Source: Bacteroidota bacterium
Lineage (GTDB): Bacteria > Bacteroidota > Bacteroidia > Bacteroidales > FEN-979
Length of the DNA stretch: 33,023 bases
Assembly: GCA_030706225.1 (NCBI GenBank)
Contig: JAUZOW010000008.1
Span: 1 to 33,023 of the forward strand
Direction: 5' to 3'
The notes beneath the pieces were generated by a model, which had not been told where the DNA came from, did not search any database, and was given only the letters and a program-made list of their open reading frames with translations. Shown piece after piece: positions 14,223 through 29,417 of this stretch (position 1 is the first letter of the stretch; each line of letters begins with the position of its first letter). A program made the translations under genes and the position numbers.

Positions 14223-16649
14223 GTGAAGAAACTTTTTCTGATTGGTATTTTTATACTAAGTTCTATTGTAAACGCTTTTCCGCAACAAACAGCGACCATC
14301 TTCGGTAAGATAACCGGTGAGGAAAGAAAACCTATTCCAAATGCCAATATCATTATCGACGGGCATCCGGGAGGCACTGCCTCTGCAAAAGATGGATCCT
14401 ACCAGATTCTGGTTCCCGCCGGAAAAAAAATAACACTACTCATTTCCTTTATAGGATATGAAACACAGAAGCTTGAAGTGCTTCTTAAATCCGGTGAACT
14501 GAAAGAATATAACATCTATCTTCCTCCTTTAGCTACTCAACTTGAATCCATTGAGGTAAAAGACCAGCAAATCCATACACAGTCATTTTCCAGACTGAAT
14601 CCTAAAGCCGTAACCCTGATCCCGACAATGAATGCCAGTATTGAAGATCTGGTGAAGACATTACCCGGAGTCGCTTCCCGGAATGAACTCAGCTCCACCT
14701 ATTCTGTAAGAGGTGGCAATTATGATGAAAACCTGGTTTTTGTGAATGATATTGAGATCTACCGGCCTTTTCTGGTTAGAGCAGGCCAGCAGGAAGGAAT
14801 GAGCTTTCTGAACCCAGACCTGGTTTCCGGTATTTCCTTCTCTGCTGGAGGTTTCGATGCACGTTACGGCGATAAGATGTCATCGGTTCTGGATATCCGC
14901 TATAAAAAACCAACTTCCTTTGCCGGCTCTTTTGATCTAAGCCTTCTTGGAGCCAATGGCCATCTGGAAGGTAAAATCGGTCGGAAATTTTCCTATCTGA
15001 CAGGTATCCGCTATAAGTCCAATTCATATTTTCTGAAAGGCCTTGATACAAAAGGAAACTATAAACCCAGATATTTCGATTTCCAGTCACTTTTTAACTA
15101 TGAGGTAAGCAAAAAATTTGAAATTTCTCTGATGGGGACTTATTCAAATAATTCTTTCAAACTTGTTCCCGAAACGAGAGAAACCAGCTTTGGAACACTG
15201 GATGAAGCGTATAAGATCAAAATGTATTTCGACGGGCAGGAAGTGGATAAATATCAGAACTGGTTAGGAGCACTGACTCTTCAGTATAAACCGACGGAAG
15301 ACATCCGGCTTAAGCTGATATCCTCAGTTTTCCAGACCTTTGAAAGTGAAACCTATGATATTTCAGCAGAATACTGGATTGGCAAACTGGAAGCTTTTCA
15401 AAATTATAACGAATACGGACAAGGCAGCGAAGAATTGGGAGTCGGAGCTTATATTGATCATGCCCGGAACTACCTGAACGGTACTGTTGCCGATATTGAA
15501 CACCTGGGAAGCTGGAATAAAGGGAACAGCCAGATGATGTGGGGAATTGGTTATCGACATGAATTCTTCAGATATAAAATGAATGAATGGCAGCTTACGG
15601 ATTCTGCAGGTTATTCGCTTCCTCATGAAACAGATTCAGTAGGGGGTTCCCATCCACCTCACAATGCATTCACTATCCCTGATTTTATACAATGCGATAA
15701 TTCAACAGGACTTAATAAGCTTTCAGCATTCCTTCAGGAAACATGGACCTTCAAGAAAGGGCGGAATGATATTTCTCTTTCTGCCGGTTTGCGGACAATC
15801 TACGATGACCTGAACGGTCAATTCCTTGCCAATCCGCGGGCAACCTTATCTATTAAGCCTCACTGGAAAAAAGAAGTTGTTTTCCGGTTTTCAGGTGGAT
15901 ACTATTCACAGCCGCCCTCCTTCCGGGAACTTACAGATCTTAACGGAAATATTATTTCTTCGCTGAAAGCACAAACCGCTTTTCATGCCGTTGCCGGAAC
16001 AGATCTTTATTTCGACGGCTGGGGAAGACCGTTCAAATTTGTTACGGAAATATATTATAAATATATGACCCACCTGATCCCTTATGAAATCGACAACCTG
16101 GAAATCCGTTATTACGGGAATAATAATTCCTTCGGATATGCAGCAGGAATCGATTTCCGGATCAACGGCGAATTTGTAAAGGGAGCTGAATCCTGGGCAA
16201 GCCTGTCATTTATGAAAACGGAAGAAAATATTGACGGATACTGGGTTCCGCGGCCTACCGACCAGCGGGTAAACCTGTGTATCTTCTTCCAGGATTATGT
16301 TCCGGATTTCCCCAGCTGGCGGGTAAATCTTACGCTGTTTTATGGCACCGGTCTGCCTTTCGGAGCTCCGGGATCGCCTAAGAAAGATCAAACGCTGAGA
16401 ATTCCTGATTACCGGCGTGTGGATATCGGATTGTCAAAACAGATTATCGGCGATCAAACCTTTTTCTCCCAGAAGAATCCATTACGGGCATTTCATTCCA
16501 TGTGGCTTGCCATGGAGGTATTCAATCTTCTCCAAATCAGCAATACCGTATCTTATCAGTGGGTGACTGATATCAACGGTCAACAGTACGCGGTGCCAAA
16601 TTATCTGACACCGCGACTGTTCAACCTTAAATTAATTGCAAATTTCTGA
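14223..16649 (+). CDS. TonB-dependent receptor with N-terminal CarboxypepD_reg-like domain (GTG start)
   Basis: ATIFGKITGEERKPIPNANIIIDG..GTASAKDGSYQI; plug VKTLPGVASRNELSSTYSVRGGNYDENLVFVNDIEIYRPFLVR; long C-terminal barrel ending in KLIANF. Confidence 0.92.
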   Translation: MKKLFLIGIFILSSIVNAFPQQTATIFGKITGEERKPIPNANIIIDGHPGGTASAKDGSYQILVPAGKKITLLISFIGYETQKLEVLLKSGELKEYNIYLPPLATQLESIEVKDQQIHTQSFSRLNPKAVTLIPTMNASIEDLVKTLPGVASRNELSSTYSVRGGNYDENLVFVNDIEIYRPFLVRAGQQEGMSFLNPDLVSGISFSAGGFDARYGDKMSSVLDIRYKKPTSFAGSFDLSLLGANGHLEGKIGRKFSYLTGIRYKSNSYFLKGLDTKGNYKPRYFDFQSLFNYEVSKKFEISLMGTYSNNSFKLVPETRETSFGTLDEAYKIKMYFDGQEVDKYQNWLGALTLQYKPTEDIRLKLISSVFQTFESETYDISAEYWIGKLEAFQNYNEYGQGSEELGVGAYIDHARNYLNGTVADIEHLGSWNKGNSQMMWGIGYRHEFFRYKMNEWQLTDSAGYSLPHETDSVGGSHPPHNAFTIPDFIQCDNSTGLNKLSAFLQETWTFKKGRNDISLSAGLRTIYDDLNGQFLANPRATLSIKPHWKKEVVFRFSGGYYSQPPSFRELTDLNGNIISSLKAQTAFHAVAGTDLYFDGWGRPFKFVTEIYYKYMTHLIPYEIDNLEIRYYGNNNSFGYAAGIDFRINGEFVKGAESWASLSFMKTEENIDGYWVPRPTDQRVNLCIFFQDYVPDFPSWRVNLTLFYGTGLPFGAPGSPKKDQTLRIPDYRRVDIGLSKQIIGDQTFFSQKNPLRAFHSMWLAMEVFNLLQISNTVSYQWVTDINGQQYAVPNYLTPRLFNLKLIANF

Positions 16650-16652
16650 GAA

Positions 16653-17876
16653 TTAATCGAATGACTTTATTGACCGGGCGATAATATCAACCGATTCGCG
16701 GATTTGATCTTCGGTAATGACCAGAGGAGGAGCAAACCGGATGATATGGTCATGGGTGGGTTTTGCAAGCAACCCGTTATCTCTCATTTTCAGACAAACA
16801 TCCCAGGCTGTTTTGCCGTTCTTCGGTCTGATTATGGCTGCATTCAGCAATCCTTTACCACGAACGAGCTCAATCATAGGGGAATCTATCTTTGTCATTC
16901 CTTCACGGAAAATCTTACCCATTGCTAAAGCATTGTCGGCAAGCTTTTCATCGCGGATCACTTCCAATGCAGCAATAGCAATACGGGCTGCCAGCGGACT
17001 ACCACCGAACGTGGAACCATGTTCACCCGGAAGGATCGTCAACATGATCGGATCATCCGCCAGGACGGCCGAAATCGGATAAAGACCACCCGAAAGGGCT
17101 TTGCCCAGGATTAAAATATCAGGACGAACTCCTTCCCAATCGCAGGCAAGCAGCTTTCCCGTACGTGCGATACCGGTTTGAACTTCATCGGCAATGAAAA
17201 GAACATTTTTCGATTTACAAAGATCATAGGCTTTCTTAAGATAACCTTCGTCAGGAACGAAAACACCAGCTTCACCCTGGATCGGTTCCACCAGGAATCC
17301 AGCCACATTCGGATCTTCAAGAGCTTTTTCAAGCGCTTTCACGTCATTATAAGGAATAGTGACGAACCCTGGGGTAAACGGGCCAAATCCATCACGCGCC
17401 GAAGGATCGGTCGACATGGTAATGATTGAAATCGTACGGCCATGAAAATTACCTTCACAGCAGATTATTTTTGCCTGGTTTTCAGGGATTCCTTTCACTT
17501 TATAACCCCATTTGCGGCAAAGCTTGAGTGCGGTTTCATCTCCTTCCGCTCCGGAATTCATGGGAAGGATCTTATCATAACCGAAATAGCTGGTAACAAA
17601 TCTTTCGTACACTCCCAGCACATTATTGTAAAAAGCACGGGATGTAAGTTCCAGAGTTTTTACCTGATCAATCAGGGCATTTACGATTTTGGGATGGCAA
17701 TGGCCCTGATTCACTGCCGAATATGCCGAAAGAAAATCATAATAACGCTTCCCTTCCGTATCCCACATAAATACTCCTTCTGCTTTCGCCAGAACGACCG
17801 GAAGCGGATGGTAATTATGTGCACCATACCTGTCTTCCAGGTCCATCGCCATTTTAGAATTAATTTTTTCGAGCAT
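16653..17876 (-). CDS. rocD: Ornithine--oxo-acid aminotransferase
   Basis: [121 protein letters not shown]. Confidence 0.95.
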
Positions 17877-17894
17877 AATAATATATATATTGGT

Positions 17895-18917
17895 TTATTT
17901 CAAAATCTGGAAAGAACCTGAATTCAAGATCTTTTCCCCTTTCCTGACCTGGTAATAATAAATCCCGTCAGCTAATTTATTTACAGGAAGTAAATTTTTC
18001 TGATCCGGAAGCACAAAGGTAGCCATACTTTTTCCTTCTGCATTAAAAATTTCTGCAATAGCATTTTCGACACATTCTCCCAGTTCCATAGTCAATGCGT
18101 TCTGTGCAGGATTCGGGAATACATTAACGGATACTTTCGGCATGACCGATTCCTGAATTCCTGCCGGATATTCAAGCATCAAATCATCAATATACATTGT
18201 ACTTCCAACCGATCCTTTGCAGGCCATAAAATTTGACAGGTTGAAGGCTGCACTGGAAACGACAAGCAAGGTCATTGTATCCGGTGACAGAGAACTCGAC
18301 GGATAATTGTACTGAATCGTAACATCAAACGGAGTATAGATAGATACAGCATCCCTGATCACCTGTTCTCCGTACCCAATGGTATCTCTTTTCTTTGAAG
18401 AAGAATTCCATTTTGTGAGCAGAGCTAAAGCACAGCAGGAATCTCCGTTTACAGGATAATACTGATAATAGCCTGTAAAATGAAGAGGTTTGCAACCTGC
18501 ACAGGGACGACCCAGGATTGCCCGGATATTGGCAAAATCCAGCGTAGCAGTACCCAGCATCCCGGGAATAAAAATATCCGTCGGATTTACAAAAAAGCTT
18601 CCGGAAGTCAACCGGGCTGCATAACTACCGAAATTGGAGGAATCGGTCCGGTATACTGTGACAGGACCGGGGCCCAAAGGAGGAGCAATGGATGCCAGTT
18701 CATTCAGTGTGGTAAGCCAGTTATCGTTTTTCCCTGATCCCAGCTGCCAGTATGAAGAAGATCCGGAAACTGAAACCTGATACCAATTTTCAAAATTCCC
18801 GTTGGGAACGTTTGATTGACTGAAACCTGCATTCAGCAGGAATAAGGAAATAAAAAGCAAAAGAATTTTTTTCATAGTAATATTTTTAATTATTAGTTTG
18901 TTAATGAGCAACATCAT
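17895..18917 (-). CDS. Secreted protein, PCMD/carbohydrate-binding-like fold with T9SS type A sorting domain
   Basis: NVPNGNFENWYQ..., STMYIDDLMLEY, C-terminal SVNVFPNPAQNALTMELGECVENAIAEIFNAEGKSM...LADGIYYYQVRKGEKILNSGSFQILK. Start is either 18917 (ATGA overlap) or MKKILLLF at 18875. Confidence 0.8.
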   Translation of the reverse strand: MMLLINKLIIKNITMKKILLLFISLFLLNAGFSQSNVPNGNFENWYQVSVSGSSSYWQLGSGKNDNWLTTLNELASIAPPLGPGPVTVYRTDSSNFGSYAARLTSGSFFVNPTDIFIPGMLGTATLDFANIRAILGRPCAGCKPLHFTGYYQYYPVNGDSCCALALLTKWNSSSKKRDTIGYGEQVIRDAVSIYTPFDVTIQYNYPSSSLSPDTMTLLVVSSAAFNLSNFMACKGSVGSTMYIDDLMLEYPAGIQESVMPKVSVNVFPNPAQNALTMELGECVENAIAEIFNAEGKSMATFVLPDQKNLLPVNKLADGIYYYQVRKGEKILNSGSFQILK

Positions 18918-21319
18918 ATCTTGTAAACAACCTGAAGTTCTGTCAGACGTGGTGGTTCCACCGTCATTGGACGCAAAGAAAACTCAGTATTCATAAGGTT
19001 GTTTACAAGCAGGGAAAATTTGAAATTTCTCAGCATATAGCTGAACCTGTAATCCACGATAAACGTTCCGGAATTATGCTGTTCCCTGTATTCTTTAATA
19101 CCTGAATTCACATTGAAAAGCTGGTTATCCAGATAATCATAGAAGAATTTATCAATATTCTTCATAAAGCCATAGTACCTTCCTCCGAAACCGGTTGAAA
19201 AATGCTTCCATGTTAATTGGATATCCGCTTTCATTATGCTTTGTTCCCGATACTTTAAAATATGACCTGAAGTATCAGAAGAAGTGGTAAGATATGTGTA
19301 ATTGAAATTTTTGATCTTATAAAAGACATAATTCGGATCAGAAGATTGCGGGACAGAATAAGTATAGCCCAGCATGACGGCAAGATTCAGATTATGAGCC
19401 ACATTACCTTCGCCATTCAATGTAAGGTCAAGTCCATAAATCCTTGCCGGCCCGGTATTAAAGAATTTAAATCCGATATTCCGGGTGGGATCGGTGGTAT
19501 TGGATCCCCAGCTCCCGAAATTGAATTCAACATAATTTTTATAATCCTCATAAAATCCGGCGAGGTCGGCTATTCCCATAAATTTGCCAAATTTGAAGAG
19601 CTGCTTTACACCCACTTCATAGGAAACACTTTGTTCCGACTTAAGATCGGGATTGGGATAAAAGCCAAATTTACCGGAATGGGTTGTTATATATCTTTCT
19701 CCGATACTTGGAACTCTGTAACCCTGTCCGACAGAAGCACGAAGGAAAGTCGCTTTTGATGCCTGGAAATTAAGCCCGGCGCGGAAGATCGGCTTGCTTT
19801 CTGTAAAGTCAGCCATATTGTAATATTCATACCTGCCGCCAAATAAAATAGTCAAACGTTCGAAGAATTTCTTTTCAAACTGAGTGTATACTGAAAAATT
19901 CTCAGAGGAATAGGTTCCGTTGTTACCTGTCGTCGGAGTACCGTCCGAAGAAAGCTGACCTGAAAAAACCTGTCCATAAGCATAAACATAAATATTGGAA
20001 GCGCCTGCCACCATAGTAAGATCTCCCAGCTTTTTGAATTTATGAGTAAACTGGTAATCATTATAAACCGTAATTTGTCGTGACGATTGGTCGTTATTTC
20101 CTGAAGAATTGGTATAAAATACGCGATTTCTTGAAGCATGGGAATCACCGTTCTTGTTGTAATATTTTACAAAAGGATCAAGATAAAAAGTAACCTCCTT
20201 GAATATGGAAAGAGATCCGGGATAGGAACGGTAAATATTGGTATCTGAATCATTCCAGAAAAATGTCTCCGCATTCTGATCGTAAAGCAGGTTGCCATTT
20301 AATCCATAGGATAATCCATCTACTTTTTTGGACCGGATCCTTGAATTGAAGTAGAATTTGAACCTTTTTTCAAACTGACCTCCATTATAAACGGAATCGA
20401 CCGCTTTCTTTTCAGGTACACCTCCGATATAGCCATCATCGGTATAATAGCTTACTCCTCCAGAAAAATCAATATTGTCAAAACGTTGAGAATGGGTCAT
20501 TGTCACTCCGTACACCAGGGGATTCATACCCGTCCAAGGTGTAGCATATCTGCGGCCGGGCTTGCTGTACATTCCGAGAAAAGTATTGATTTTGGTTTCC
20601 GGGTTATCTCCCGGCCATGCCGTACGGATATTAATGGCACCATTTATGGCAGAGGATCCATATACAACAGACGAAGCGCCTTTTACTACTTCAATCTGAT
20701 CTACGTCATCAATGGGAAGAACATTCCAGTTTGGTCTGCCTGCATCGCCGCGCAACAAAGGGATTTCATCTACCATGATCATTACCCGAGATCCCAGTCC
20801 GGAGCTAAACCCGCTTCCTCCCCTTATCTGTGGCTCATTGTCAACAATAGCTACTCCCGGAATTCGGTCAACGGCTTTATCAATGCTTGGTAAATTCGAA
20901 ACCTCAATGCTCTGGGCTTTCATCACCTCAATGGAAGAAATGGATTCCTGGATTTTCTGGGCATATTTAGATGCTGAAACGACAACCATATTCAGATCTT
21001 TCGAAGTCGTTTCCAGCGCCACATCCAGCGTATGAGTCTTTTTCCCCGCTAATATTACGGTAGTTTCATATCTGTCGTATCCTACGAAAGAAAAGAAAAT
21101 AATGTATGTGCCTTTGGGTAAATCCAGCGTATATGAACCGTTTTCGTCAGTATAGGTTCCTCTGTTCTGGTCCTTTACGCCAATATTAACAAAAGGTAAG
21201 GGTTCAAAGGTTTTTGCATCCATTACTTTCCCTTTTAGTATGATATTTTGTGAATATCCACCAAGAGAAAATAACAAAAGACTGACTGAAGACAATAAAA
21301 AGGTAAGGAACACTTTCAT
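18914..21319 (-). CDS. TonB-dependent receptor (CirA/BtuB-like) with CarboxypepD_reg-like N-terminus
   Basis: IILKGKVMDAKTFEPLPFVNIGVKDQNRGTYTDENGSYTLDLP; plug DKAVDRIPGVAIVDNEPQIRGGSGFSSGLGSRVMIMVDEIPLLRGDAGRPNWNVLPIDDVDQIEVVKGASSVVYGSSAINGAINI. Confidence 0.95.
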   Translation of the reverse strand: MKVFLTFLLSSVSLLLFSLGGYSQNIILKGKVMDAKTFEPLPFVNIGVKDQNRGTYTDENGSYTLDLPKGTYIIFFSFVGYDRYETTVILAGKKTHTLDVALETTSKDLNMVVVSASKYAQKIQESISSIEVMKAQSIEVSNLPSIDKAVDRIPGVAIVDNEPQIRGGSGFSSGLGSRVMIMVDEIPLLRGDAGRPNWNVLPIDDVDQIEVVKGASSVVYGSSAINGAINIRTAWPGDNPETKINTFLGMYSKPGRRYATPWTGMNPLVYGVTMTHSQRFDNIDFSGGVSYYTDDGYIGGVPEKKAVDSVYNGGQFEKRFKFYFNSRIRSKKVDGLSYGLNGNLLYDQNAETFFWNDSDTNIYRSYPGSLSIFKEVTFYLDPFVKYYNKNGDSHASRNRVFYTNSSGNNDQSSRQITVYNDYQFTHKFKKLGDLTMVAGASNIYVYAYGQVFSGQLSSDGTPTTGNNGTYSSENFSVYTQFEKKFFERLTILFGGRYEYYNMADFTESKPIFRAGLNFQASKATFLRASVGQGYRVPSIGERYITTHSGKFGFYPNPDLKSEQSVSYEVGVKQLFKFGKFMGIADLAGFYEDYKNYVEFNFGSWGSNTTDPTRNIGFKFFNTGPARIYGLDLTLNGEGNVAHNLNLAVMLGYTYSVPQSSDPNYVFYKIKNFNYTYLTTSSDTSGHILKYREQSIMKADIQLTWKHFSTGFGGRYYGFMKNIDKFFYDYLDNQLFNVNSGIKEYREQHNSGTFIVDYRFSYMLRNFKFSLLVNNLMNTEFSLRPMTVEPPRLTELQVVYKI

Positions 21320-21338
21320 ACTTCAGTTTCTTTATTCA

Positions 21339-21369
21339 CAAAAATAAGAAAATATTCAGCGTGGACAAG
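21339..21369 (-). promoter_or_regulatory. Candidate promoter for the TonB receptor operon (CTTG-N19-TATTTTTG)
   Basis: Minus-strand TATTTTTG at 21339-21346, 19 nt spacer, CTTG (3/4 of TTTG) at 21366-21369. Confidence 0.55.
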
Positions 21370-21374
21370 TGTTT

Positions 21375-23270
21375 TTAAGCTATTGCATTATAACTGGTAA
21401 TCAGCGATTTATATTTCAAAGAAGGCGATGGTATCAAATTTCCCAGATTCAGTTTGGGCCATATTTCATTGATTTTCCGGATCGTTGCATCATCCATAAC
21501 AATGATATTTGGCCATTCTCTCTGAAATCCATCAATCCCCTTTTCTTTTCGTGTCCCGTCAACAAAAAGAACAGGATAACGATTCCCATTACCATCCTTT
21601 ATATAAAAACAATCACGCGACGGATCAATATTATTGAAAACAATCCAGGCAACATCTTTCCAGCATTGAATATCTGCACCTTCATCGACAAAAACAATAA
21701 ATTTCATTCCATAGATCAGTTTTTTCCGGAGAAGGTCCCGGGATATTTCCTGAATAGCCCCCGGTTCTTTTTTCCGGATAGTAAACAGGACAACTGAAAT
21801 TCCATTCTGAAGCAATGCATCATTCACGCTGGAGATTCCGGGAAACATTTCAGATATTTTTTCTTTATCTATAAAATAATCCACCGGTAATCCAGGATCC
21901 GGGGAATCTTCACCGGGAAGCTTCTCCGTCGCATCGATTCCCATCTTGCTTCCGAATGCAAAGCGCCGGCTGGAATGGTCAAGGATATCGACAGGCCCTG
22001 CAGAGAAATGAATGTCATTTACCGGATCTACTCTCTGAGAGACCATACGGGCTATTCCGGTATAGTCTTCAGGCGAGGTATCCCCTGTGACAAGGATCAT
22101 AACCTTGTTGGTCATGAGTTGCCCTGCGCCCCATAGTGCATTCATTGTCTTGAATGCTTCGCCCGGGTATGTCTTTTTTATTCCTGCAATGACCAGATTA
22201 TGAAATACGCCTTCGATGGGCATATGCATACCGGTAAGCTCTGGTGCAGAAGTCAGCTGGATCGGGAACCGGAAGATCTTTTCCGTCGCCTTCCCAATCC
22301 ATCCATCCTCCATGGGAGGAATACCGACAATGGTTGCCGGATATATGGCATTTTTACGATGTGTTATGCAAGTCACATGAAAGCGGGGATAATAATCCGC
22401 CAATGAATAAAATCCGGTATGATCTCCAAACGGGCCTTCAAGTATGAGATCTTCTTCCGGGTCAATGTATCCTTCGATTACAAAATCCGCATCTGCGGGA
22501 ACTTCCAGATCCTGAGTCAGGCATCGGACAAGCTCCACCTTTTTTTTTCTTAGAAATCCGGCAAATAAAAATTCATCCAGATTTTCGGGAAGAGGGGCGG
22601 TTGCAACATAAGTGCAGGAAGGATCTCCTCCAAGTGTGACCGCTACCGGCATACGTTTTTTCAACAATTTATATTTCCGGTAATGAGTAGCCGAACCTTT
22701 ATGAAGATGCCAGTGCATTCCGGTCAGTAAAGGTCCGAATACCTGCATGCGGTACATGCCGGTATTATGAATGCCATTTTCAGGATCTTTTGTTCGAACA
22801 ACCGGTAGTGTAATGAAAGGCCCCCCGTCGGCAGGCCAACAGGTAAGAACCGGAAGTTTCGTAAGATCCGGAGGATCCATAACCACTTCCTGGCAGGGTC
22901 CCCGTCCGGAAACGACTTTGGGTAGCCAGGATGCAACTTCCTGTAAAACAGGCAGAACCTTAAGCTTCTCAATAAAGGTATCTCTGGAAGAAACAAATTC
23001 CTTCAGTAATTTTATCATCCGCTCATCAAACTCATCCAGACTATTTACCCCCAATGCCATTGCCATTCTTTTCTCAGATCCAAATGCGTTAATAAGCAAA
23101 GGAAAAGGCGTACCCGTATTCTCAAAAAGCAGCGCTTTCCCGTTTGTTTTCATCACCCGGTCGGCAACTTCCGTGATTTCCAGCCTGGGTGAGACAAATT
23201 CCCTGATCCGGACCAACTCGCCCGCATTTTCAAGGGTTGATATAAACTGATATAGATTTTTATAAGCCAT
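21375..23270 (-). CDS. ubiD: UbiD family decarboxylase (menaquinone biosynthesis decarboxylase-like)
   Basis: DRVMKTNGKALLFENTG, VTLGGDPSCTYVATAPLPENLDEFLFAGFLR, EGPFGDHTGFYSLADYYPRFHVTCITHRKNAIYPATIVGIPPMEDGWIGKATE. UbiD catalytic E and R region recognisable. Confidence 0.93.
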   Translation of the reverse strand: MAYKNLYQFISTLENAGELVRIREFVSPRLEITEVADRVMKTNGKALLFENTGTPFPLLINAFGSEKRMAMALGVNSLDEFDERMIKLLKEFVSSRDTFIEKLKVLPVLQEVASWLPKVVSGRGPCQEVVMDPPDLTKLPVLTCWPADGGPFITLPVVRTKDPENGIHNTGMYRMQVFGPLLTGMHWHLHKGSATHYRKYKLLKKRMPVAVTLGGDPSCTYVATAPLPENLDEFLFAGFLRKKKVELVRCLTQDLEVPADADFVIEGYIDPEEDLILEGPFGDHTGFYSLADYYPRFHVTCITHRKNAIYPATIVGIPPMEDGWIGKATEKIFRFPIQLTSAPELTGMHMPIEGVFHNLVIAGIKKTYPGEAFKTMNALWGAGQLMTNKVMILVTGDTSPEDYTGIARMVSQRVDPVNDIHFSAGPVDILDHSSRRFAFGSKMGIDATEKLPGEDSPDPGLPVDYFIDKEKISEMFPGISSVNDALLQNGISVVLFTIRKKEPGAIQEISRDLLRKKLIYGMKFIVFVDEGADIQCWKDVAWIVFNNIDPSRDCFYIKDGNGNRYPVLFVDGTRKEKGIDGFQREWPNIIVMDDATIRKINEIWPKLNLGNLIPSPSLKYKSLITSYNAIA

Positions 23271-23276
23271 GCCGAC

Positions 23277-23693
23277 TTAAGGATTCGATTGAAAACTTTT
23301 ATCTCTGAATTTTTCAGGTTTTTTTTCCGTATTGTATTTCGAAGGACACTTGAGTAAAAGGCTTTTGGCCTGAAAATAATCCTTTTCCATATGCCCTGTC
23401 ACAACGATCTTTTCCGATTTTTCAAAATCATGCGGTTTTGCATCATTATAAACAACCTTTTTCTCAATCCCTTTTTCATCCTTCATATAAAAAGAAAACT
23501 GATTTGCATTTTTGCCGGGATTGTATTCAATAGGTTTGTTTTTATCCAGGATACCTATAATCTGAAAATCCCTGGAAGACTTTAAAGCAGCTTCCGAGAA
23601 ATCAGCATAGGTACCCGAATGAGTGAGGGTCGAAACAACCACAGCAATGATCGTTACCAGGATCAGAAGAATGAGGATATGACTGGTTTTCAT
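23277..23693 (-). CDS. ccmE: Cytochrome c maturation protein CcmE (CxxxY variant)
   Basis: Single N-terminal TM, OB-fold-like region KNANQFSFYMKDEKGIEKKVVYNDAKPHDFEKSEKIVVTGHMEKDYFQAKSLLLKCPSKY, lying after ccmB/C/D. Confidence 0.88.
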   Translation of the reverse strand: MKTSHILILLILVTIIAVVVSTLTHSGTYADFSEAALKSSRDFQIIGILDKNKPIEYNPGKNANQFSFYMKDEKGIEKKVVYNDAKPHDFEKSEKIVVTGHMEKDYFQAKSLLLKCPSKYNTEKKPEKFRDKSFQSNP

Positions 23694-23845
23694 ACCGGAT
23701 CATTAATATTCCTGCTCTTTTCTTTCCATTCCTTTTCAAGGCGTGATACCTTCCGGTCGATAATAAAGAGATAAACTATCAATCCTATCAGGATCACTGC
23801 AAGGACGGCTATCACTACGACAATTTTACCGTATTCCATAAGCAT
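23690..23845 (-). CDS. ccmD: CcmD-like small membrane protein (51 aa, not in supplied ORF track)
   Basis: Translation MLMEYGKIVVVIAVLAVILIGLIVYLFIIDRKVSRLEKEWKEKSRNINDPV: one TM helix plus charged tail, ATGA overlap with ccmE, positioned between ccmC and ccmE. Confidence 0.82.
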   Translation of the reverse strand: MLMEYGKIVVVIAVLAVILIGLIVYLFIIDRKVSRLEKEWKEKSRNINDPV

Positions 23846-23861
23846 ATATTAAAATCGTACA

Positions 23862-24545
23862 TCAGGCGGTCATTTCTCCATTCAGCTTATTGATCCTGAC
23901 TCTCAAATTCAGAATCCAAAATCCGAGCAGGATCCATCCCAGCATTGCCGGATAAAAAACCCATCGCATAGCCGGGTCAAGGTGCATTGGAAGAACCGGA
24001 GAATCTTCATTTCCCGGGTGAATGCTTGCACCGGAAACGCGCGGAATAACCAAGACAAAAACGATCCACATTACAAAAGCAAAAATGTTATAAACTGCCG
24101 AAATTTTTGCCCGGTTCTTAATGTCATTGACTGAGCTTCTAAGGACCATATAGGCAAGGTATATCAATAAGCCTGCCGCTGCTCCATCCAGTTTCGGATC
24201 ATTAACCCAGGGGGCTCCCCATGTAAAATTGGCCCAGATCATACCTGTCAGGATTCCCAGGATACCAAATAAAATCCCGGTATTCACCGCTTCCACCGCC
24301 ATCCTGTCCTCTTTCAGATTAAATGTTCTGAGAAATCTCAGACTATAGATAAAACCGGTAGTAAGCATGGCAAGCATTCCAAACCACATTCCCACATGAA
24401 AAAAGAGATTCCGTATGGTTTCCTGAATCATAGTATCCGGAACCGGAATACTGAAGCCCATGACTATTGCATAAATCAACAATACCCCGGATAAAACTTT
24501 CCACCAATATGTTTTAAAAATCCTCAATCGTAATGCGTAATGCAT
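23862..24545 (-). CDS. ccmC: Heme exporter / cytochrome c biogenesis protein CcmC
   Basis: LFFHVGMWFGMLAM, GMIWANFTWGAPWVNDPKLDGAAAGLLIYLAY, PVLPMHLDPAMRWVFYPAMLGW; six predicted TMs. Confidence 0.92.
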   Translation of the reverse strand: MHYALRLRIFKTYWWKVLSGVLLIYAIVMGFSIPVPDTMIQETIRNLFFHVGMWFGMLAMLTTGFIYSLRFLRTFNLKEDRMAVEAVNTGILFGILGILTGMIWANFTWGAPWVNDPKLDGAAAGLLIYLAYMVLRSSVNDIKNRAKISAVYNIFAFVMWIVFVLVIPRVSGASIHPGNEDSPVLPMHLDPAMRWVFYPAMLGWILLGFWILNLRVRINKLNGEMTA

Positions 24546-24554
24546 AAATAAAAT

Positions 24555-25214
24555 TCATTCTTTCCAAATATAAGGAAATAAGATAAATGCCAGCAAGATT
24601 ACAGTAATATCAATCATGATCAGCAGGATCAGCCATCCGGCGTTTCCGGCCCATCCTACGGTATTCAGAGCCGATGAAGAAACCCTGACCAGGATGAGCA
24701 GCAAAGGCAATATAATAGGAAAACTGAGGATTGCAATCAGAGAAAAATTATTTGAAGCCCTGGAAGCAATAGCAGCTACCATGGTTAGAGTGGAAGACAA
24801 TCCGATACTACCCAGGAAAAGAACAGCCAGAAAAAGCGGAAAATTCAGTATTCTGTTTCCCATCAGGAGAATAAAAAGTCCGGATGACAAACCTGCAAGC
24901 AGGATCATAAGCAATCCGTTATAGAGTATTTTCGACAGCAGGATCCCTTGCGGGCTCGATAATGTATAATAATATATTAAGCGGGAAGGGCTTTCCTGTA
25001 CAAAGCTTTTGGATATACTATTTACTGCCACAAACAGGAGGATGATCCAGAAAAGCGAATTCCACGTCTCCGGATCAATAACCCGGCTGAAGGCCAGATA
25101 CGCGATAAGAATAGTGGAAACCAGGTAAAGCAGAATGCCATTCAGAACATATTTTTGCTTTATCTCAAGCCGGATCTCCTTTCCTGATAATATTTTGATT
25201 TCCTTCAGCAGCAT
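24555..25214 (-). CDS. ccmB: Heme exporter protein CcmB
   Basis: MLLKEIKILSGKEIRLEIKQKYVLNGILLYLVSTILIAYLAF...FVQESPSRLIYYYTLSSPQGILLSKILYNGLLMILLAGLSS. The ORF-track start at 25280 reads through a terminator, so start reassigned to 25214. Confidence 0.88.
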   Translation of the reverse strand: MLLKEIKILSGKEIRLEIKQKYVLNGILLYLVSTILIAYLAFSRVIDPETWNSLFWIILLFVAVNSISKSFVQESPSRLIYYYTLSSPQGILLSKILYNGLLMILLAGLSSGLFILLMGNRILNFPLFLAVLFLGSIGLSSTLTMVAAIASRASNNFSLIAILSFPIILPLLLILVRVSSSALNTVGWAGNAGWLILLIMIDITVILLAFILFPYIWKE

Positions 25215-25229
25215 AAGGCTCGTTTCATG

Positions 25230-25237
25230 CAAAAATA
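25230..25237 (-). promoter_or_regulatory. Candidate -7 box TATTTTTG for the ccm operon
   Basis: Exact TAnnTTTG on minus, 15 nt upstream of the ccmB start, immediately downstream of the terminator U tract. Confidence 0.5.
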
Positions 25238-25242
25238 ACATT

Positions 25243-25274
25243 AAAAAAGCCGTCCCGGAAATCCGGGACGGCTT
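25243..25274 (-). terminator. Rho-independent terminator of the upstream T9SS protein gene
   Basis: Perfect 12 bp stem AAGCCGTCCCGG-ATTT-CCGGGACGGCTT on the minus strand followed by a T tract. Confidence 0.95.
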
Positions 25275-25307
25275 AATCATATAGTCAGTAATAATTTTTT
25301 TTCAATC

Positions 25308-27167
25308 TTATTCGACTACCATTTTGTTGGTAACTGACTGGCCGTTAACTCTGACAGTATAAAAATAGACACCGGTTGTCAGGTTGTTGCCATCAATAGC
25401 AATCTGGTAAGTACCGGCAGGTTTGTAACCTTTATCGGCTGACCAAACTACTTGTCCCATCATATTGGTAACTTCAACAGAAACGTTACCGGCTTTTTCC
25501 ATATTGATACCGATCCGGGTTGTTCCTTTGAAAGGATTCGGATAGTTTCTGGAAACAGTCAGTGCAGGTTTCATATTCTTGTTTGAAACACCCGTCTGGA
25601 TTGTATTCTTTGACGGAGTCAGAACTTTGAAATAGTTTTCACTCATTGAAGTCTGTCCCTGATAGCTTGTCTGGCTTGCGCCTTTTACATAGCTTCCTGC
25701 ATATTCATCATTCTGGAAAACAATATAAAGCTTATCATTGCTGGTAGGTGAAGCGCTGGGGTACATACATTCTGTCATGAAAAATTCGAGGTCTTTGGTC
25801 AGAATATTGGTGCTGTCGCTCCAGATCACATTGTTTCCGGAAATGGTAGCAGTACGTTCAGAAATATTCCTGAGCATATATCCATCGCCATCAGCTGTAG
25901 AAGTAACCTGAGTATAGATCAGGAACATATTGTTGTTATCATCAATCACCATGGTCGGATCGCTCGTCATGGAGTTATAATAATAAGCAAGCGTCGGAGT
26001 TCCGGTAAAGCAAACGGTATCAGTGACGTAAGCAGGTAAATTTCCATGAGCATAAAGGGTATCCGGATTCAGATCCTGAGGTAGTTGGGTCATATTTTCA
26101 TTCCAGTAAACAAGACCATCTGTATAAGGATACCATTTTTTCCCATCTGCATCACCTTTGGCTCTCTGAAGACCGAAAGAAAGATGAGCCACATCATTAT
26201 TATCCAATGCTATAGCCATACATCCATCGGAGCAATAAAAAGCAGGAGTTGTATCGTTAGAAGTCGTCCATTTGTCATAAGGGCACTGCCATACGATGGT
26301 TTTGGTCCATGTTGATCCATTATCGGTTGATTTCATTACGAATTGGTCAATAAAGTTGTCACCGACTGCAAAAGCAAGAGTATTTCCGTGAGGTTCAGCC
26401 CATGCGTATGCATCACCGGCGAAACCGATATATTCATCGGATCCCATTCCATCAAGTTGTTTCCAACCATCCCAGGTTGCACCGCCATCCAGTGAACGGT
26501 TGTAGAGGATAGCCCCATCCAGTCCGTTATAAGCGGTACCACCATTAGCAGTAGGTTCGGTCATAGCAATAATATGAACAGTATTGTGGTCAGTTCCACT
26601 GGTAACAACGCGTGCCCAAAGCATGGCTGCTGCTCCGCTTGGGTTAGGCATATTTGTCTGTGTCCAGGTACCTGTTCCTTTAGTAGCGCGGGTAGAAACT
26701 ATCAGATTGGCACTACCGTGAGTGACTACTATTTCTCCCGAAGGTCCAAGAGGTGCATATGAAGGCCATCCGGTTCTGACATTTTCGATTCGCTGTGAGG
26801 GTTCTGTTGCCCAGCTGCTGCCGTCGAAATAGTTGTAACCGGTTCCACGATCGGTAAAACTGGTTGACTGACTGTGAGACATAATGGCTGTTGCACCAAT
26901 AGTCCCATCAGAAAACATGTAGATCCGGTTCATGTTAGAAGAGTTCGTCTGTAAATCATAGTATGATTGGCAAACCTCACCAGCTTCCTGAAGCGATTTT
27001 GTCGATAATACCGGGTTTGGACTTTGCATTCCGGGCCGAAGGTCATTGATGGCTGCGGAGGGTTTCAGAACAGCGATGTTCTTATGCCGTGCCATGATGC
27101 TTCTTGGCTGAGCCATGGCTCCTCCGGCCACAAGAGCGATCGCGAGAAGGACTACTAGTTTTTTCAT
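25308..27167 (-). CDS. Secreted Asp-box (BNR-like) protein with T9SS type A sorting domain
   Basis: Signal peptide MKKLVVLLAIALVAGGAMAQ; Asp-box motifs SLDGGATW and STDNGSTW; C-terminal SRNYPNPFKGTTRIGINMEKAGNVSVEVTNMMGQVVWS...GVYFYTVRVNGQSVTNKMVVE. Confidence 0.87.
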   Translation of the reverse strand: MKKLVVLLAIALVAGGAMAQPRSIMARHKNIAVLKPSAAINDLRPGMQSPNPVLSTKSLQEAGEVCQSYYDLQTNSSNMNRIYMFSDGTIGATAIMSHSQSTSFTDRGTGYNYFDGSSWATEPSQRIENVRTGWPSYAPLGPSGEIVVTHGSANLIVSTRATKGTGTWTQTNMPNPSGAAAMLWARVVTSGTDHNTVHIIAMTEPTANGGTAYNGLDGAILYNRSLDGGATWDGWKQLDGMGSDEYIGFAGDAYAWAEPHGNTLAFAVGDNFIDQFVMKSTDNGSTWTKTIVWQCPYDKWTTSNDTTPAFYCSDGCMAIALDNNDVAHLSFGLQRAKGDADGKKWYPYTDGLVYWNENMTQLPQDLNPDTLYAHGNLPAYVTDTVCFTGTPTLAYYYNSMTSDPTMVIDDNNNMFLIYTQVTSTADGDGYMLRNISERTATISGNNVIWSDSTNILTKDLEFFMTECMYPSASPTSNDKLYIVFQNDEYAGSYVKGASQTSYQGQTSMSENYFKVLTPSKNTIQTGVSNKNMKPALTVSRNYPNPFKGTTRIGINMEKAGNVSVEVTNMMGQVVWSADKGYKPAGTYQIAIDGNNLTTGVYFYTVRVNGQSVTNKMVVE

Positions 27168-27497: not shown

Positions 27498-29417
27498 TTA
27501 TTTTACGATCATCTTATGCGTATAGGATTTTCCGTCCATAGTAACGGTATAGAAATAAACGCCGCTGTTCAGATCGTTTGCATTGATCGTCAGTGTATGC
27601 ATACCCTGGCTCATAACGCCGTAGTTGACATTGCTGACCTGCTGTCCAAGGATGGAAGAAACGGAAACATTTACAGAAGTTGCTTTCTGCAGATTAATAT
27701 TGACCTGGGTTTTCCCTTTAAACGGATTTGGGAAGTTCGCTGAGACAGGTGAATAAGCAGTTTCTGCATTATGATTCGGTGTGCCCACATAGGTACCAAA
27801 ATCGGAATCATTGAAAGTCAGGCCTGTTACATATTGGAACAGAATAGGATCACTGCTTGTGCTTCCGAGAACATCGGTAGTTACAGGAAGAGTAGATGCA
27901 GCAGCTGTGCCATCATAGAAAGCATCCGTTGCAACTCTCATATAGAAGTTATCAGCCATATATTCGGTACCCTGAGTAAAGTTCTTAACAGGAGTGATGA
28001 GGAAATTTTCAGCATCATAACCGATAGCTTTGATATCCGGAGCTGAATTATCGGCAGCAAAGAAAGGATCTGTATCTGTCCATACGCAGAAAACTTTGGA
28101 TCCATCCGGTGTACGGGTCATTTGCATTTGGTGATCAAATGCAAGGCCAAAAGAACCTGCTTCAGTATCCGTTGATTTCAAAGTATCGATATAATATGCA
28201 TTCCAGCTACCGTAACGAGTCATATAAACATCAAACAGTTGAACCGGTTCTGCTGAATAGAAATAATTCAGAGAGTCAGGATTGATGGAAATAGTACCTC
28301 TTACATAACCAAAAATATGAAGGTTGCCAAATTTATCGACAACAGCGCCGTTAGTGGATTCGTTACGGGTATCAGCCCATTTATTGAACCAGCGGGGGAT
28401 TACGAGGCTTGTATCCATCCGGGTCGGGAAGAGATAGGATTTAAAAACATTAATGGTTGAATAATCGAAAGCCGGAGCTTTTTCCCAGGTTGCGCCATGG
28501 TCAGTTGATTTGTAAACAATAGGCCATTCAACACCGTATGGGTTGTAATTTGCATCGGCATCGATCGCTGTGAAAACGAAATAACCGACAGATCCGTCCG
28601 GAGACCATGCAATAGCTGCAGCATCTGTACGACCGTCTTCCAGAACATCCGGTTTCAGGGAATCGATGGGAGCCCAATCAAATTTTGAAGTAGCCGAATT
28701 GAAAGCGCCATTGAGGATTTGGAAACCATTCTGAGTATAGCTGCCAGTTGTACCAAGCAGTAAGTTGGATGCAACAGTCGCATGTCCATCCGGTGAGCAA
28801 TACAGGCAAATATCCATATGATTCAGGTAAATACCGGAAGCGTTTGTTTTAAAGTTAACATCTTTATTCGTGCCATCCAGTTTAATACTGCCGTAGAAAT
28901 TTTCAATCCAACTGGAACCGTTTGTGATAGGGCCGGTGAAAACGCCGTACATATCATGAGGATTCGTAGAATTATTCGGATTGTAAGTCACCATGGAAGG
29001 ATAACGGAAGTTATGACCGCTGGTTGCTGTAACAACACAGCTATCCCAGTTTGCTCCCTGATCAGTAGTAAATGTGAATTTCAGATCGTTCCCGGTGTTG
29101 CCATAAGCGCCACCTGCACGGTTCCCAAAATTAAACATATTGGCACTGGGAGAAATGGTAAGAAACCTTTCATCGTAATTAAAGATTCCATTAGGATTCG
29201 CTGATGAACCAAATGTAACTTTTAATAGGCTTGATGAATTATCAGCAGTGCTTAAAATTTTGGTAGGACCATTAAAGGAGGGCGTTTCATTGATCAAATT
29301 CAGACTTGCTCCCACAGGGCGCACTTTCGCCTGATAGATCCCGGTTGTGTGTCGGTTTTGAGCGATAACAAAAGATGCTATACTCAATGCCATGACCAAG
29401 AGTAATGTTTTTTTCAT
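27498..29417 (-). CDS. Secreted Asp-box protein with T9SS type A sorting domain; paralogue of the neighbouring gene
   Basis: Signal peptide MKKTLLLVMALSIASFVIAQ; Asp-box-like TTDQGANW and STDHGATW; C-terminal SANFPNPFKGKTQVNINLQKATSVNVSVSSILGQQV...GVYFYTVTMDGKSYTHKMIVK. Confidence 0.87.
   Translation of the reverse strand: MKKTLLLVMALSIASFVIAQNRHTTGIYQAKVRPVGASLNLINETPSFNGPTKILSTADNSSSLLKVTFGSSANPNGIFNYDERFLTISPSANMFNFGNRAGGAYGNTGNDLKFTFTTDQGANWDSCVVTATSGHNFRYPSMVTYNPNNSTNPHDMYGVFTGPITNGSSWIENFYGSIKLDGTNKDVNFKTNASGIYLNHMDICLYCSPDGHATVASNLLLGTTGSYTQNGFQILNGAFNSATSKFDWAPIDSLKPDVLEDGRTDAAAIAWSPDGSVGYFVFTAIDADANYNPYGVEWPIVYKSTDHGATWEKAPAFDYSTINVFKSYLFPTRMDTSLVIPRWFNKWADTRNESTNGAVVDKFGNLHIFGYVRGTISINPDSLNYFYSAEPVQLFDVYMTRYGSWNAYYIDTLKSTDTEAGSFGLAFDHQMQMTRTPDGSKVFCVWTDTDPFFAADNSAPDIKAIGYDAENFLITPVKNFTQGTEYMADNFYMRVATDAFYDGTAAASTLPVTTDVLGSTSSDPILFQYVTGLTFNDSDFGTYVGTPNHNAETAYSPVSANFPNPFKGKTQVNINLQKATSVNVSVSSILGQQVSNVNYGVMSQGMHTLTINANDLNSGVYFYTVTMDGKSYTHKMIVK

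Follow-up and report, generated by a model that had tools for sequence, protein, structure and literature searches.

The CcmE heme chaperone encoded in the window (the whole 33,023-nucleotide stretch of Bacteroidota DNA analysed here) is, judged by its sequence, of the Cys type that defines System I* (reviewed in 2011; PMC3601427), with CxxxY in place of HxxxY, and the Cys type is the normal form of CcmE across the phylum Bacteroidota, the motif of the window being real but ordinary. With a probability of roughly 0.9, the ccmB-C-D-E genes (Table 1) would represent the heme-delivery half of an ordinary Bacteroidota System I* pathway, which as a whole would be a working CcmABCDEF system. This reading draws on the sequence motif, gene content, synteny and the phylogenetic profile, from which all the biochemical steps are inferred.

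Table 1. Features of the ccm locus in the window and the likely ccmA gene on contig C112
Feature	Position	Strand	Evidence and remarks
ubiD-family menaquinone biosynthesis decarboxylase	21375..23270	-	TIGR03701 3.3e-178, above cut-off
ccmE, periplasmic heme chaperone, 138 aa	23277..23693	-	Pfam PF03100; single copy in genome
CPSKY (CxxxY) heme-attachment motif, C116-Y120	23334..23348	-	Direct codon reading
ccmD (CcmD_alt family), 51 aa	23690..23845	-	Pfam PF20077 4.8e-13; 4-base overlap with the ccmE start
ccmC, heme-handling membrane protein	23862..24545	-	Pfam PF01578 1.7e-15; NCBIfam TIGR01191 3.1e-12, under its cut-off
ccmB, membrane subunit of the CcmAB transporter	24555..25280	-	Pfam PF03379 2.3e-08, above cut-off
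Likely ccmA, ABC ATPase	C112:45576-46205		lpxA-efp neighbourhood and phylogenetic profile

The ccmE product matches the Pfam CcmE profile with an E-value of 7.1e-14 and 52.4 bits, above the curated cut-off of 24.6 and with the OB-fold domain covered, and its layout comprises a single N-terminal membrane anchor, the OB-fold domain and a C-terminal LLLKCPSKY motif. The codons of C116 (TGT, 23346-23348) and Y120 (TAC, 23334-23336) yield the motif LLLKCPSKYNTE, in agreement with the original prediction of CxxxY instead of HxxxY at this place. In phmmer alignments to solved structures, C116 falls in register with the motif Cys of Desulfovibrio vulgaris CcmE (2KCT, 'LMTKCPLEHH'; a weak pairwise match, E 0.016) and with the heme His of Escherichia coli CcmE (1SR3, 'LAKHDENY'; likewise weak, E 1.2), and no HxxxY lies in register with the heme site; the heme-binding His of HxxxY, by which classical System I is recognized, is thus replaced by Cys at that position. 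C116, P117, S118 and Y120 are invariant in an alignment of 13 sequences with identities of 31-62% to the CcmE of the window, and therefore the motif is not due to chance. With 2.66 Mb on 241 contigs and a completeness of 99.2%, the genome contains exactly one CcmE, and a genome-wide search with the CcmE profile detects no His-type protein, which upholds the predicted System I* type.

In 192 of the 297 Bacteroidota genomes searched, the CcmE profile finds a match, almost always a single one. The motif census covers CcmE genes from part of these genomes together with relatives, spans more than 40 Bacteroidota family labels, and was drawn by profile and blind to the motif, with the lowest-scoring matches left out. 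Among 114 distinct Bacteroidota CcmEs, CPSKY occurs in 112 and CPSRY in two, the His type is found in none, and the C and Y of CxxxY are present in all; in four more matches, which are paralogues resembling CcmE or fragments, no motif aligns. The Cys type therefore looks fixed throughout the phylum. A separate scan of named genomes returned at least 585 relatives, the best 80 of which all carry Bacteroidota names, including Pedobacter, Chitinophaga and Bacteroidales MAGs; its search pattern contained KCPSKY, which makes it blind to His types, and it was kept out of the census. In some Bacteroidota, small CcmE-like membrane-anchored proteins are encoded near ccmE (L026:1081-1458, L015:441-800, and also on L220 and L231); both complete ones lack CxxxY, and the only one compared with Pfam, from L015, matches no family there.

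Cys-type CcmE, CPSKY and System I* are already known, while the extension of the Cys type to the whole of Bacteroidota looks mildly new. Of 36 bacterial genomes with the variant, 25 have CPSKY, which makes it the commonest variant motif; the groups featured among the variants include the delta-proteobacteria, Chloroflexi and Firmicutes, and the Desulfovibrio System I* set is functional in E. coli with neither CcmH nor CcmG (PMC3601427); Bacteroidota are absent from the variant-CcmE lists consulted, and no published statement of a phylum-wide fixation was found in a search that left subscription papers mostly outside. The cysteine is a rule for Bacteroidota rather than an oddity, and Cys-type CcmE is therefore commoner in bacteria than one would gather from 'a few bacteria like D. 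desulfuricans' (PMC9084895). Cultured Bacteroidota with a single CcmE would be handy models for the re-breaking of the Cys-heme bond on the chaperone, a step described in the 2011 review as 'not obvious' (PMC3601427).

The neighbours of ccmE are those predicted, with Pfam matches for the CcmD-like protein, CcmC and CcmB. CcmC carries a tryptophan-rich (WWD-type) stretch at about W104-W113 in a motif scan, and CcmB has syntenic homologues with 62-70% identity in most loci of the same family. The usual Bacteroidota order is ccmB-C-D-E-F, with ccmF directly after ccmE in most of the loci read from other Bacteroidota. Conversely, in the uncultured Bacteroidales-like family of the window the order is ccmB-C-D-E-ubiD: ubiD occupies the slot held by ccmF in most other Bacteroidota, and ccmF is relocated. 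The ccmBCDE block is syntenic across this family, with CcmE identities of roughly 48-65%.

The original prediction that ccmA, ccmF and ccmH are lacking beside this operon is correct as to adjacency, but the implied absence does not hold for ccmA and ccmF, both of which are probably encoded elsewhere in the genome. Contig C193 codes at positions 15452-15667 for the last 72 residues of CcmF in an open frame that reaches the final base of the contig. This tail is 64% identical over 56 aa to the CcmF of a relative (G305) and adjoins a PCMT gene, and the relatives' ccmF, separate from ccmE, is often beside PCMT too; at the syntenic spot they encode a full-length CcmF as one long protein, and 39 of 42 genomes of the family give a strong CcmF match. 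The N-terminal ~620 residues, including the active-site WWD stretch, were not found in searches of the assembly's contigs. Their lack is most simply accounted for by an assembly gap, and the relatives point to an intact CcmF. A weak Cytochrom_C_asm match on C201 (E 0.56) was rejected as a CcmF candidate, the better query of a same-family CcmF having matched C193 only. In another family of the same order, G350 (99% estimated completeness) shows a strong, near full-length CcmF match, yet has neither a CcmE match nor an ATPase of the CcmA type.

As for ccmA, the likely gene is flanked by lpxA and efp, at a distance from the rest of the ccm genes. In G370, a relative of the same order, an ABC ATPase gene is located in an lpxC-lpxA-X-efp-lpxD cluster (its genes were named by reading their sequences) directly beside ccmBCDE, and its orthologue on C112 occupies the same cluster. 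Among the 38 genomes of the order that belong to other families, strong matches to this ATPase are confined to G343, G358, G365 and G370, the same four that have CcmE, so that the two agree in 38 of 38 (Fisher p 1.4e-5); in the family of the window it is present in 40 of 42 genomes. TIGR01189 alone does not single out a CcmA, since all 33 ABC ATPase matches remain under its cut-off, and that choice was rejected. The C112 protein reaches 82 bits against the NCBIfam ccmA cut-off of 131.6, and a ccmB-adjacent ATPase of another Bacteroidota genome, at 105 bits, likewise falls below it. The assignment of C112:45576-46205 as the likely CcmA is based on the neighbourhood in the relative and on the phylogenetic profile instead of the curated cut-off. 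The genome encodes CcmC and a likely CcmAB transporter, with B and C identified by Pfam and A by neighbourhood and profile.

The predicted absence of CcmH is supported by a genome search that gave no match at E <= 10. DsbD is encoded in one copy, on contig C112, and CcmG is not distinguishable from other thioredoxin-like proteins of the genome. Two c-type cytochromes are encoded, and therefore clients exist for the pathway: a lipoprotein-like protein of ~350 aa with six CxxCH motifs (contig C90; Pfam Cytochrome_C7, 1.2e-10) and a monoheme Haem_bd protein with a signal and a CMGCH motif (contig C235). The count of CxxCH DNA patterns (230 versus 104 for the reversed pattern) is of little use beyond the six in-frame matches on C90.

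The alternative of a reduced system, in which ccmF was lost in the lineage and CcmBCDE is a relic or serves another job, for example the export of heme to the periplasm or to other proteins, would explain why no contig holds the core of CcmF, and a same-family genome, G302, suggests that loss does occur: it has neither CcmE nor the CcmA-type ATPase and retains a 178-aa CcmF-like N-terminal remnant between PCMT and enolase (L109:6863-7396), probably after recent loss of the entire pathway in this one family member. In the genome of the window, however, CcmE, C, D and B are all intact, intact c-type cytochrome genes also remain, and the CcmF tail runs open into the contig end with 64% identity to a full-length relative, as expected for an assembly break; loss of ccmF is rejected for the position of this tail and for the whole gene carried by relatives, and the reduced system is improbable.

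In the preferred System I* pathway, CcmC, together with CcmD, would load heme onto CcmE through C116, as deduced from homology, and the bond would likely be a thioether. CcmA, encoded on the other contig in the lpxA-efp neighbourhood, would hydrolyse ATP and act with CcmB in the release of holo-CcmE, and CcmF, from the third locus cut by the contig end, would pass the heme to the CxxCH motifs of secreted apocytochromes, among them the hexaheme and monoheme proteins, with reductant supplied by DsbD and CcmH unused. For the CcmE of D. vulgaris, non-covalent binding of ferric heme by way of the Cys has been reported (PMC3884852), and C116 might similarly not be a covalent ligand, heme being held non-covalently or by another residue; this has a slim chance given the invariance of the motif Cys in the Bacteroidota census, the covalent heme on D. 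desulfuricans CcmE (PMC3601427) and the requirement of the Cys for heme binding in Methanosarcina acetivorans CcmE, in which C120A loses heme (PMC9084895).

The proposed pathway resembles System I* of Desulfovibrio, archaea and other bacteria in its CPSKY CcmE, in the adjacent CcmB, C and D, in that CcmH was not found and, judging from the tail on C193 and from relatives, probably also in its CcmF, but differs in the Bacteroidota gene order B-C-D-E(-F), in the CcmD_alt-family CcmD and in the dispersal of CcmA to lpxA-efp and, in the family of the window, of ccmF as well. With the archaeal CcmABCEF of M. acetivorans (PMC9084895) it shares a CxxxY CcmE, dispersed genes and no CcmH, whereas archaea are without CcmD and CcmF is split in M. 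acetivorans, unlike the CcmD present here and the single long CcmF of relatives. The E. coli system, a classical System I (CcmABCDEFGH, with HxxxY), has homologous CcmB, C, D, E and F that are expected to play the same roles, but here Cys stands in place of H130, CcmH is missing and the genes are not confined to one operon. CcmD beside a Cys-type CcmE had been taken as a sign of a hybrid, and is none, because D. desulfuricans has both a CxxxY CcmE and CcmD, the latter being required (PMC9084895), and about one third of bacteria with variant CcmE even keep CcmH (PMC3601427). Accordingly, the description of the locus as a 'hybrid or reduced System I' does not hold, the Cys motif being the Bacteroidota norm and ccmF and ccmA probably lying elsewhere in the genome. 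A true System I/I* hybrid, in which a His-type Bacteroidota operon gained a Cys-type CcmE by horizontal transfer, has in its favour only the general occurrence of the two motif types among bacteria (PMC9084895) and can be dismissed almost entirely, being strongly contradicted by the census, with the family-wide synteny of the block also against it.

A tentative proposal, to be held with reserve, is that the form found across Bacteroidota (CcmD_alt, CcmA by lpxA-efp, no CcmH) may constitute a separate lineage that attaches heme without any CcmH/CcmG step, within which the family of the window would also have uncoupled ccmF from ccmE, with a menaquinone gene instead.

The arrangement aminotransferase, T9SS-tailed protein, TonB receptor, ubiD and ccmE-D-C-B (window 16653-25280) is conserved in the family, and a menaquinone gene thereby adjoins the cytochrome maturation genes. 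On the other flank, 25308-27167 and 27498-29417 each encode a large secreted protein that has a type IX sorting tail and weak repeats of a BNR-like kind, and in some relatives two or three tandem copies of such proteins occupy the same site beside ccmB.
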